A stretch of DNA of 64,000 nt, taken from NCBI RefSeq assembly GCF_015207655.1, contig NZ_JADEWN010000012.1, positions 1 through 64,000 on the forward strand, read 5' to 3'. The first letter of the stretch is position 1. The number at the start of each line of letters is the position of its first letter. Below are positions 22,691 to 28,660 of this stretch, in pieces. A program made the translations under genes and the position numbers. Under the pieces are notes generated by a model. The model was given only the letters and a program-made list of their open reading frames with translations. It made no database searches and had not been told where the DNA came from. The DNA is from Gloeocapsopsis crepidinum LEGE 06123. GTDB taxonomy: Bacteria; Cyanobacteriota; Cyanobacteriia; Cyanobacteriales; Chroococcidiopsidaceae.

Positions 22691-22747
22691 AGCTTCTCAA
22701 AACTAAATCAGTTGCGGCTGCTTAACAGTGATACAATTATCTTCCCA

Positions 22748-22905
22748 TCGGTTCGGTTAAAAACCAGAGGTAACGGGGAAAGTCCGGTGTAAATCCGGTG
22801 CTGTCCCGCAACTGTGAAAGAAGTTATGAGTGAGTCAATCTAACTTCATAACTGAGAACCCAAAACTCAAAATCTAAAGTCAGAATGCCCGCCGAAGGGA
22901 GTCTA
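22748..22905 (+). promoter_or_regulatory. cobalamin riboswitch
   Basis: cggttaaaaaccagaggtaacggggaaagtccggtgtaaatccggtgctgtcccgcaactgtgaaag ... cagaatgcccgccgaaggga; B12-box core and flanking helices. Confidence 0.9.
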
Positions 22906-23008
22906 CACCAAGCTGCGATCGCCCAGAAAACAGAACATTTTGTTTTGAGTTTATTTCTGAAGAAATCAGCTAGGCATTAATCACGGATTTATCTGCGAGG
23001 TACAGAGT

Positions 23009-23659
23009 ATGTCCAGTCAGAATTTTGCGCCATTTCGGCAACTGAATCCTTTTATTTTGAGTGCTAGTCTAGGAATTCTATTTTTAAGCACAGCACAACA
23101 GGCTCTAGCACACCATGCATTAGGAAGTGAAACTCCGACTAATTTTTTTGAGGGATTTATCTCAGGGTTAGCGCATCCAGTCATTGGTTTAGACCATTTG
23201 GCGTTTGTTGTTGCCATTGGTTTAATCGCCGCAGGACAAATAAACGGTACTATCATTCCAGCAGGATTTGTTTTAGCCGCACTTGTAGGAACCGGAATTC
23301 ATGTACTCAACTTCGATCTACCAGCAGCAGAAATTGCAATCGCCCTATCAGTAGTTACCTTTGGCGTCATGCTAGCAATTCCGCGTAAACCTAATTGGAT
23401 TGTCTTGACTTGTTTGGGTGCGATCGCTGGTTTATTTCACGGCTATGCTTACGGAGAAGCAATTATCGGTGCAGGAATGATACCTTTAGTTGCTTACTTA
23501 CTAGGATTTAGCTTAATTCAGTATGGTGTAGCAATGTTAGCGCGTGCTGTAGGTAATCTGATCATTCATAAAATACCAAATCGACAAATCATGCGACTTT
23601 GTGGCTTAGCGATCGCTGCGATTGGTATTGTTTTTATGACTAATTTGTTATTTGGGTAA
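23009..23659 (+). CDS. HupE/UreJ family Ni/Co permease
   Basis: HALGSETPTNFFEGFISGLAHPVIGLDHLAFVVAIG; HGYAYGEAI. Confidence 0.9.
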   Translation: MSSQNFAPFRQLNPFILSASLGILFLSTAQQALAHHALGSETPTNFFEGFISGLAHPVIGLDHLAFVVAIGLIAAGQINGTIIPAGFVLAALVGTGIHVLNFDLPAAEIAIALSVVTFGVMLAIPRKPNWIVLTCLGAIAGLFHGYAYGEAIIGAGMIPLVAYLLGFSLIQYGVAMLARAVGNLIIHKIPNRQIMRLCGLAIAAIGIVFMTNLLFG

Positions 23660-25107: not shown

Positions 25108-26115
25108 TTAACCTAAAATCTGTTTTTTGCCAGCCCGACAATCTTTCGGTGTGATCCCAAACTTGCGCTTAAATGCCGCTGTAAAGTGTCCTAAATGCGA
25201 ATATCCTACTGCATGGGCAACTTCTGATATCCGTGTTTCCTTGCAACGTAACATGATCTGTGCCTGCTCCATGCGATGGTGGTGTAAGTAACCAAACACC
25301 GTTGTTCCAAAAAGTTCTCGGAAACCTTGTTGCAGTTTGCGATCGCTTAATCCCACTAATTGCGCTAGTTCCGTTAATGAAGGAGGATAGTTTAAGCGCT
25401 GGTGTAAAATTTCTTTAGCGTGGTGAAGTTGCTCAATTGTGTTTGGATGAAGTTGCGATCGCTGTCCATTATCTGCCAAAATTGGCTCTAGCTGCATCGC
25501 TAATAATTCAAACACTTTAGATTGAAGATAGAGGCGCTGGGCTGTTCCTTGAAAAGGAGCATTCAAAATTTGTCGAACGGCGGCTTGCATTGTCCAAGTC
25601 ACATCTGGAAAAAATGATACCTTCCACTCGTTCTCTTTAATAAATAGCTTGACAATTTGCTCTGGTTCTCCAGCCATGAAACCTTTAAGTAATTCTGGCA
25701 ATAGATGCACATTAATCGCAGTTATCGGCTGTAATTTCTGTATTTTTTGTACATACGCAGGTGAAATTCCACTTCCAGACAAGTAGCTGCATTTTCCACC
25801 ACTAGCTGGATAAACGTTGTTATAAGTGAATAACCCAGATGAAAGTATCAGAAATTGTATTAGATGATCGTGAACAGGTACCCGAACTTCTATGTCATCA
25901 TGCAATTCATAGTTAAAAATTTCCAGCCATAGCCCTGGTAGTAGTTCTATTTCTCGGCAATATCCCTGACCTATACGAGGAGACACGATAAATATCTCAC
26001 CATCAGGGTGATGTTCGCTGCTTTGAGCAGGTTCATACATCAATTCACCGAAGTTGGCTGCGGAAAGGATGAGAGTCATTAGAGAACTGGGTAACGTTGG
26101 GCTTGCTGCCAGCAA
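25108..26115 (-). CDS. AraC family transcriptional regulator (PchR-like)
   Basis: C-terminal double HTH: LTELAQLVGLSDRKLQQGFRELFGTTVFGYLHHHRMEQAQIML ... VAHAVGYSHLGHFTAAFKRKFGITP. Confidence 0.9.
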   Translation of the reverse strand: MLAASPTLPSSLMTLILSAANFGELMYEPAQSSEHHPDGEIFIVSPRIGQGYCREIELLPGLWLEIFNYELHDDIEVRVPVHDHLIQFLILSSGLFTYNNVYPASGGKCSYLSGSGISPAYVQKIQKLQPITAINVHLLPELLKGFMAGEPEQIVKLFIKENEWKVSFFPDVTWTMQAAVRQILNAPFQGTAQRLYLQSKVFELLAMQLEPILADNGQRSQLHPNTIEQLHHAKEILHQRLNYPPSLTELAQLVGLSDRKLQQGFRELFGTTVFGYLHHHRMEQAQIMLRCKETRISEVAHAVGYSHLGHFTAAFKRKFGITPKDCRAGKKQILG

Positions 26116-26173
26116 TTATCAATAATCTTACCGCGATCCTTCTTTCTATTAGCCTTTAAATTGAAATACCAAA

Positions 26174-26758
26174 TCACTTTATCGATGTCTTTTTAGCGAT
26201 CAAAACTGCCAAAATTAACCCTAATACGACGAGTGTAGATGCGATCGCTGGTATTATCCATTGATTTTCTGTTGGCTGTGGTTGTGATGGTAACTGCGCT
26301 ACAGTTGGTGATGGAGAAGGCGCGACTCCTGGTGCAACATTAACGTCATAACTTAATTCAAAAGCTTGAAAACTTCCTGCAACTTTGGGAGAACCAGTGA
26401 ACTGCAATCGATAAGCGCCAGATTGCGGAAAAACGATTTCAGCAGCAGGAATATTCTGAAAGCGTTCTGCTGAGATGGATTTTAAAGGTGGTTCTAGTAG
26501 CGGCTGAGATGACGATGATTCTGAATAAACGGCTAACTTGCAATCGCACTCAGCTAAAGGAATAATTTGTCCTCCCTTACGAGTCAGCGCAAACCAAGTC
26601 AGTGAAGATTCTCCAGCACGCGGATTATCATTTGGTTCGATATGTAAAGTTGCACCAACATCCGCAGCAGTTTGAACTTTGTGAGCGAAAACAGGTGATG
26701 CGATCGCCAGCGAAACTACTACAGCAAAACTACTGATTGTGGCGTAGCGGGGGAGCAT
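26174..26758 (-). CDS. exported, C-terminally anchored protein with predicted mature N-terminal His; possible metal-binding protein
   Basis: signal peptide ending SPVFA|HKVQ; beta-rich body; C-terminal TM helix IIPAIASTLVVLGLILAVLIA-KK. Confidence 0.65.
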   Translation of the reverse strand: MLPRYATISSFAVVVSLAIASPVFAHKVQTAADVGATLHIEPNDNPRAGESSLTWFALTRKGGQIIPLAECDCKLAVYSESSSSQPLLEPPLKSISAERFQNIPAAEIVFPQSGAYRLQFTGSPKVAGSFQAFELSYDVNVAPGVAPSPSPTVAQLPSQPQPTENQWIIPAIASTLVVLGLILAVLIAKKTSIK

Positions 26759-27971
26759 AAAACTTCTCCAATGATAATATTGACCAAAACCAACGCGATC
26801 GCACTAACAATACTCCTAGTGTTAGCAAGCCTAAACCAGCGACAAATAGATAATTACGCCACGTCTGTTGCAAAGTTCCTAAATAATGCGATCCAATCAG
26901 CACGACATGAATTGCGCATAAAACTAAAGCTGGAACACTTAACAAGTGAAGTTGTCGCCAGTGCTTACCCAAAGTTTTTTGCAGACGATCAAAACTCGTA
27001 AAAGCTGCTGGAGTTATTAATAGTAAAGCCATTATTCCACAAGCGATCGCAAATTGATGCTGTGGCAACATAAAAAATACGGCTTGCCAATTCCAACCCA
27101 AGGTATGCTGAATTGTGTGACCAACATGAACAAGTGCTAACACAAACGCTCCTACCCCCAAAGTCCGACGATATTTTAGGGGTTGCGCCCACACACGCCG
27201 TATCGGACGCGCAATCAACGCCAGCATCAAACACAACAATGCACCATGACCTGTAATATAAATTAACCCGTGACCATCACCCGTGCGCACCAGTGTCAAC
27301 ACGCCGATAAAAATCGTCAACCAACCTGCTAAACGATACAACTGACTGCGCTGATTTGTACCAATAACCGCAGTCGAGACACCCACACCTAACATCGTAG
27401 GTACTGTACCCAAACCAAAAGCAAACAGGATTGCCGCCCCACGCCAAAAACTTCCAGTTTCGGCAGCTTTAATTTGCGCCGCATACAAAAAACCACATGG
27501 CATTAAACCCCAAACAATCCCCAAAGCCGCTGGCGTCCACCATTTAGTATGAAACGACAGCCTTACCATCGCTGCACTTAAGCGATTATGCAAATTTCCC
27601 TGAGTTAACGGATGCAGAAACGGCAGACGCGGTAAAAATTGCGGTTTAACCTGAACAATGCCAAACCAGATCAGCATCAACCCTGTCAAAATGGCAATTC
27701 CTTGACGTAGCCAACTACCATCCCCCGCCATTTGTCCGCCAGCAATTAGAACAGAACCTAAAGCCCCAATTCCGGCACCCACCAAGGTGTAACTTAGCAA
27801 TCTACCCAAATTTAGTAAGAGATGAAATGTAAACTGTTGCTGCCAAGGGGGAAAAGTTTGCTGCTGCGTCAATGACAATGAAAACGCTGTCGTCAACGGC
27901 ACACACATTCCTACACAGTGCCCAAAACTCCCCAGAAATCCCAGGGTTATCATTAACAACAGGTCAACCAT
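26730..27971 (-). CDS. sulfite exporter TauE/SafE (DsbD-TM-like) family protein fused to a ferric-reductase-like TM domain
   Basis: N-terminal GFLGSFGHCVGMCVPL and WGLMPCGFLYAA; C-terminal LGKHWRQLHLLSVPALVLCAIHVVLIGSHY resembling haem-binding ferric-reductase-like domains. Confidence 0.8.
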   Translation of the reverse strand: MVDLLLMITLGFLGSFGHCVGMCVPLTTAFSLSLTQQQTFPPWQQQFTFHLLLNLGRLLSYTLVGAGIGALGSVLIAGGQMAGDGSWLRQGIAILTGLMLIWFGIVQVKPQFLPRLPFLHPLTQGNLHNRLSAAMVRLSFHTKWWTPAALGIVWGLMPCGFLYAAQIKAAETGSFWRGAAILFAFGLGTVPTMLGVGVSTAVIGTNQRSQLYRLAGWLTIFIGVLTLVRTGDGHGLIYITGHGALLCLMLALIARPIRRVWAQPLKYRRTLGVGAFVLALVHVGHTIQHTLGWNWQAVFFMLPQHQFAIACGIMALLLITPAAFTSFDRLQKTLGKHWRQLHLLSVPALVLCAIHVVLIGSHYLGTLQQTWRNYLFVAGLGLLTLGVLLVRSRWFWSILSLEKFYAPPLRHNQ

Positions 27972-27975
27972 TAAA

Positions 27976-28464
27976 TCATTTTTGCGATTGAGTCACTCCA
28001 GGAACATTAACAACTTCAGTATCAGAAATTCGCTTGCCATTATGAGCTAGAGCCATGTGGTTATTAGCATTTAAACTGACTGTAATTTCGTTTCTTCCTG
28101 GTTGTAAATTTTCCAAATAGTACCAAGAGCTATATAAGCGTGTAAGTTTTTGGTTATTAACATAAATGTGTCCGTGACCTTCTCCAGGTACAGCTACTGT
28201 ATTAACTCTTTCTGGTGCAAATTTAAAATTAGTTACTTTAACTTCTAAGTTATAGCCTTTCATGGTATCTTTATGCACTACTAAGTCAACTGTTGGTACA
28301 GCTTGTCTTGAAGGAATTTCCATGATTTGATCGTGGTTATCCGCATGATTATGGCTACTGGGGCTATGAGATATAACACTTTGCGGTTCTATATTTTGGA
28401 TATTATTACTAATACTAGTGAAATCAAATAATGTAGCTAATGTAATTAAAAAGTTGGAAATCAT
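27976..28464 (-). CDS. exported hypothetical protein with His-rich segment
   Basis: hydrophobic N-terminus; SHSPSSHNHADNHDQIM; VPGEGHGHIYVNNQK; 4-nt gap to the downstream TauE-like gene. Confidence 0.65.
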   Translation of the reverse strand: MISNFLITLATLFDFTSISNNIQNIEPQSVISHSPSSHNHADNHDQIMEIPSRQAVPTVDLVVHKDTMKGYNLEVKVTNFKFAPERVNTVAVPGEGHGHIYVNNQKLTRLYSSWYYLENLQPGRNEITVSLNANNHMALAHNGKRISDTEVVNVPGVTQSQK

Positions 28465-28660
28465 TTTTGAGAGAAAAACTCAACTAATTAGCCTAGAATA
28501 AGGTACTTAGACTGATACCAATTATCTAAATTCTGACAACAAATCCAAATCAAAAAAACTAGATAGGAATTGAAGCATCTTGATAATAAATTAGTATTAA
28601 TTCAACACTTATAACAATTGCTCAACTTTGTCAAAAGACAAGCTGTCATACTTGTTGGGA

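Follow-up and report, generated by a model that had tools for sequence, protein, structure and literature searches.

An N-terminal-histidine copper protein accompanied by a membrane partner is an already known kind of system, of which CopC-CopD and YcnI-YcnJ are examples, with an exported beta-sandwich that starts with histidine in its mature form and a partner of multiple transmembrane (TM) segments. N-terminal-His domains carried by HupE proteins were described in 2025, and the anglerases Ang-1 and Ang-2, together with DUF4198 and DUF6702, are further N-terminal-His metal binders, the Ang domains being tied to membrane transporters (PMC12537917). The way in which cyanobacteria take up copper for their plastocyanin and oxidase remains ill-defined, and a 2025 review gives CtaA as the only well-characterised dedicated copper importer (PMC12292863). 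The petE/petJ switch is controlled by PetR, a protein of the BlaI family, and by the copper-activated protease PetP (PMC7896320, PMC13421787), and the PetRP regulon of Synechocystis has been reported as four proteins only (PMC7896320).

The locus considered here lies on the minus strand of a 64,000-nt stretch of the Gloeocapsopsis crepidinum LEGE 06123 genome (the window, i.e., the whole stretch of DNA that was analysed), and consists of gene A (27976..28464), gene B (26730..27971), gene C (26174..26758) and gene D (25108..26115). It had been described in a first-pass annotation as a co-directional, metal-handling module: its layout was confirmed (four minus-strand open reading frames, gaps of 4 nt between A and B and of 58 nt between C and D, and a 29-nt overlap of B and C), and the metal-handling theme is supported by the results below. 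A-B-C apparently has not been described before; it is an operon conserved widely among cyanobacteria, and encodes a secreted, predicted metal-binding protein and a membrane partner with a heme domain.

Conserved core and neighbours of the operon

The conservation of gene order that had been named as a check was found when the neighbourhoods were compared: B is the neighbour of C at 70 of the 79 named loci, which is more than chance would give. The 33 genomes, among 60 relatives, that encode a full-length B are precisely those that encode a full-length C (in G018 a contig end truncates the B match). The two genes lie on separate contigs in G033, G036, G039 and G048, and eight of the nine genomes that carry a C locus without B have B elsewhere. 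B and C are an obligate pair and form the core of the operon, and A, intact or partial in 8 of 20 relatives' loci and in 12 of the 80 named loci, is optional. In G010, A and the upstream operator are retained, B persists as fragments only, and C is absent.

Gene A encodes, as claimed from the outset, an exported, His-containing protein; it has no Pfam family above cut-off, and its export signal is clear in relatives but weak in the window copy. Its model is Ig-like (pLDDT 89), and a search of solved folds returned generic Ig-like matches only, none below 1e-3. On a Sulfitobacter plasmid (L133:6608-7366), a PCu(A)C domain is followed by an A-like domain within one protein.

Gene D is a lineage-specific neighbour outside the conserved core, encoding a regulator of the AraC family (PF12833, 2e-22). 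It had been called PchR-like, a description of which nothing further than the C-terminal helix-turn-helix was confirmed. Its reading frame was called from a TTG, and an in-frame ATG at 26079, giving a C-D gap of about 94 nt, is the more plausible start. The idea that gene D regulates the cluster had to be given up, since no more than 2 of 21 relatives carry it, while the conserved operator matches petR/petJ promoters instead.

The membrane protein and its exported partner

B has 11 TM segments according to hydropathy, and was anticipated to join a TauE/SafE (DsbD-TM)-like half to a ferric-reductase-like half, which the profile search bore out: residues 7-225 match PF13386 (DsbD_2, 2e-46) and residues 242-352 match PF01794 (Ferric_reduct, 7e-9) in Pfam. 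The first half shows the profile match, the Cys pair in TM1 and the PCG motif in a later TM that mark DsbD_2/COG2836 proteins (Cys19, Cys23 and Cys159), the TM1 motif HCxxMC being kept in 19 of 19 homologues and the PCG cysteine in 18 of 19. Genes of COG2836 have been found in CsoR copper regulons elsewhere (PMC4938975). The second half is nearest to MsrQ/YedZ in NCBIfam (6e-15), at 55 bits against a curated cut-off of 130 for the MsrQ equivalog NF003831. It carries the three canonical histidines of YedZ/MsrQ-type FRD proteins, with an arginine in place of the first: Arg268 and the heme-ligand candidates His282, His342 and His355, all present in 19 of 19 homologues. In a survey of the FRD superfamily, this three-His-plus-Arg pattern is that of YedZ and STEAP1, and one surface-side heme is thought to be bound (PMC3591440). 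B agrees with the YedZ/MsrQ/STEAP branch in the spacing of these four residues and in its MsrQ profile, but differs from it by the fusion to a DsbD_2 domain; the terms "DsbD" and "SafE" are absent from the survey (PMC3591440), and the literature searched did not yield any account of a protein that fuses DsbD_2 to an FRD.

C is an exported, C-terminally anchored beta-sandwich, for which cleavage between SPVFA and HKVQ had been expected to leave a histidine as first residue. The family agrees with this predicted cleavage: His26 (codon at 26681..26683, minus strand), the predicted residue 1 of the mature protein, follows the signal region in all 79 homologues taken from named genomes of cyanobacteria, and the preceding residue is Ala in 74, Ser in 4 and Gly in 1. 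The CxC motif (Cys46/Cys48), Trp30 and the C-terminal TM are kept in all 79 as well, and His1, His14, Trp30, Cys46 and Cys48 are invariant among 58 aligned mature domains. The AlphaFold2 model (pLDDT 92) is an eight-strand sandwich in which strands 2-6 and 9-16 form a hairpin, and the strand register would place His1 opposite His14 across this first beta-hairpin, as predicted cross-strand neighbours. A histidine brace would bind Cu through the N-terminal amine, the side chain of His1 and one further ligand.

Neither Pfam nor NCBIfam has a family for C, and none of its 58 aligned homologues matches CopC (PF04234) or YcnI (DUF1775), so that membership of either family, suggested at first, is ruled out by the profile search; weak YtkA-like matches occur in 6 of the 58 (best E 0.065). 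The suggestion fares better at the level of fold, as the nearest solved structure in Foldseek is the CopC-like CrdA of Helicobacter pylori (E 5e-5, TM-score 0.64/0.73, 11% identity), followed by DUF4426 and the copper-binding FetP/P19/FtrA, a likeness that is only one of Ig-like sandwiches (TM-score about 0.64, 11% identity). The metal site of CrdA differs, being Met-rich and without His (PMC9182242). Profiles of A, B and C gave no useful match against PDB sequences, and no CopC gene was found in the organism's own genome. The C-B pair therefore resembles CopC-CopD and YcnI-YcnJ in combining an exported N-terminal-His sandwich with a multi-TM partner, whereas C lacks their Pfam match and has His14 and CxC as candidates for further ligands, and the DsbD_2-FRD protein B takes the place of CopD. 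Ang domains, unlike C, form part of HupE/UreJ_2 fusions and are found in other phyla.

Four C paralogues (L145:6383-7027, L146:7126-7779, L147:14157-14684 and L151:357-977) have lost the first Cys of CxC and gained a new one at the Gly97 position, with His1 and His14 retained; this loss and gain in the sequences suggests that C needs two cysteines as a pair. All but one of the four are located in metal-resistance islands, alongside Zn/Cd/Co-type ATPases and/or ArsR/SmtB regulators. Directly 3' of the C gene at two other loci (L148:593-1372 and L154:6545-7309) is an exported protein without a Pfam family whose mature form would start at a histidine (AHEMRHIGG...), and at L149:7539-8430 the C gene is itself directly 3' of a DUF4399 protein.

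The operator-like element upstream of gene A

A conserved block upstream of A was found by phylogenetic footprinting, and the same 19-mer was then recognised in petR/petJ and petJ promoters. The window copy, TGACAGCTTGTCTTTTGAC (28630..28648, minus strand), is a perfect match containing the dyad GACA-N3-TGTC plus TTTTGAC, and is presumed to be a PetR-type copper-regulon site. It overlaps a promoter (28606..28634, minus strand) in which TTGACA at 28634-28629 is followed by the -10-like TATAAGTG at 28613-28606, both conserved in 5 aligned genomes. The TTGAC(A) of the operator forms the -35 box, and a -10-like hexamer stands 17 nt after TTGACA in most of 50 homologous operons.

Sixty genomes were scanned for TGACAGCTTGTCTTTTGAC. 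The organism's own genome has four sites with up to 2 mismatches: before this operon (0 mismatches), between tonB and exbB-exbD, between petR and petJ, and before a TonB-dependent receptor. In G044 petJ is separated from petE, which encodes plastocyanin (PF00127), by a copy without mismatches, and target sets with petJ, exbB or a TonB receptor are also found in G001, G004, G009, G012 and G013. In the 80 named cyanobacterial loci (916 kb), all 50 sites immediately precede the leading gene of an A/B/C unit and are on its strand, compared with 0 sites for the reversed pattern, used as control. The 60 relatives have 85 sites, of which 18 stand before A/B/C units where random placement would give about 0.006; neither count (50/50; 18/85) is corrected for shared ancestry. 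Five Fischerella-type genomes in which B is unlinked have the operator before this gene as well. No Rfam match was found in front of the operon, and control of A-B-C by a riboswitch of its own was rejected.

A-B-C has the same operator as the petJ, petE and petR promoters, and copies of A and C are also found physically inside petRP/petJ loci: petP-petR/petJ...A-B-C in L124, C-petJ-petR in L144, petR-petP-C in L154, petJ-A/petR-petP in L161 and A/petJ in L162. Relatives of A elsewhere likewise adjoin petJ or petRP. The distribution of the operator (petR/petJ, petJ/petE and tonB/exbBD, with 50 of 50 sites before A/B/C units and no control sites) makes A-B-C a strong candidate, with high probability, for a copper-responsive regulon of the PetRP type. 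PetR itself would be the protein bound at 28630-28648, to judge from the position and the dyad symmetry of the site. By comparison with the four proteins of Synechocystis, the regulon here apparently extends to TonB-ExbBD, receptors and A-B-C. The tonB/exbBD genes and TonB-dependent receptors under this copper-type operator are a candidate cyanobacterial outer-membrane route for copper uptake. These copies of the operator before tonB/exbBD and TonB-dependent receptors are at L199:3305-9661, L201, L202, L203, L204, L205 and L206, one of them near FecB/FecC-type ABC genes.

Metal and direction of flow

As the operator matches that of copper-controlled electron-carrier genes, A-B-C is probably part of copper acquisition, and "copper acquisition/reduction", named early on as the most likely theme, finds support in the copper-regulon operator. 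We give a probability of roughly 0.55 to the reading of A-B-C as the copper-acquisition operon of the cyanobacterial copper-limitation regulon, in which we infer both the metal and the direction of flow. Regulation through the operator could act in either direction.

How would such an operon work? When copper is scarce, PetR-type control would turn on petJ and, with it, A-B-C and a TonB route through the outer membrane. In the periplasm, copper would be captured by A and by C on its membrane tether, Cu(II) being bound by the N-terminal amine and imidazole of His1 together with His14. B may use its heme b and cysteines as a conduit to move electrons outwards from the quinone pool or the cytosol, either reducing Cu(II) to Cu(I) or keeping the CxC of C reduced, and this CxC would then receive Cu(I) and deliver it to an importer in the inner membrane or to apo-cuproproteins. 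This new import pathway, in which copper is taken up as Cu(II) and reduced on the tethered C by the heme/thiol reductase B, behind a PetR-type operator and a TonB route, is a more tentative proposal than copper acquisition as such. An operator common to the TonB system and the B-C reductase/receiver pair makes it a specific and testable pathway in many genera. It also provides an approach to the function of COG2836-FRD proteins, for which sulfite exporter is the usual annotation, and of a family of N-terminal-His proteins without a Pfam entry. The literature searched contained neither the architecture of B nor the C family, nor their placement in a copper regulon together with TonB genes.

An unlikely reading, if the best placed among the rivals to copper acquisition, is that cells starved of copper acquire iron: since cytochrome c6 takes the place of plastocyanin, the regulon would raise iron uptake, with B as a ferric reductase and TonB receptors carrying siderophores. 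It would make sense of the ferric-reductase domain in B, of the TonB receptors that, in G013, accompany FecB/FecC-type ABC genes close to the motif, and of a C gene (L150, G033) that lies beside an isiA-like gene with an IsrR antisense RNA, an iron-stress locus. FetP/P19 folds, which are among the nearest to C, also belong to iron-uptake systems. However, the N-terminal His and CxC form a ligand set for copper or other soft metals, and ferric reductase activity is not established for YedZ-type FRD proteins that lack a flavin domain (PMC3591440).

Less probable again is a role in cobalt/nickel handling, with C as an external metal catcher feeding HupE or CbtB, like the HupE/UreJ_2-fused N-terminal-His anglerase domains, Ang-1 providing the precedent (PMC12537917). 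Cobalt was considered seriously because of riboswitch neighbours: the operon converges with a HupE/UreJ transporter gene (23009..23659, plus strand; PF04955, 3e-41), which follows a cobalamin riboswitch (22732..22910, plus strand; RF00174, 57.5 bits, E 1e-11) and recurs, in convergent orientation, beside C genes. Twelve of 33 genomes have a C gene no more than 4 kb from HupE or CbtB, against about 0.05 expected and uncorrected for phylogeny, at several distinct loci that are mostly behind cobalamin riboswitches; this recurrence of C beside Co/Ni transporters has no account under a pure copper model. In G006, C and HupE converge a few nt apart, the old C copy beside B being a remnant, and in G012 a C paralogue stands beside HupE in a metal island. 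C paralogues are also grouped with ArsR/SmtB regulators and Zn/Cd/Co-type P-type ATPases, in resistance islands of the Zn/Co type, and A homologues directly follow CbtB-CbtA on Leisingera and Labrenzia plasmids. Yet the operator ties the operon to petJ/petE rather than to B12, the HupE/CbtB adjacency is absent from the majority of genomes with C, and the anglerases themselves bound Cu best (PMC12537917). Cobalt as the primary metal was accordingly ranked below copper once the petJ/petE operator had been found. A cobalamin-riboswitch HupE gene stands beside petP in G056 (L211), and in other genera CbtB and a 395-aa Ig-like protein occupy the slot taken elsewhere by such a HupE gene.

Copper detoxification, or salvage during plastocyanin turnover, with expression when copper is plentiful, is the least likely reading: CrdA, the nearest fold to C, is a resistance protein, and PetR represses petE, so that ownership of the motif alone does not set the sign of regulation, but the operator at A-B-C has the same orientation as in petJ promoters, with TTGAC(A) forming the -35 box, and is common to TonB uptake genes. 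Elsewhere, in G005, a copy of the operator lies directly upstream of a PepSY_TM membrane protein (L215:383-1653), a further candidate member of the regulon.
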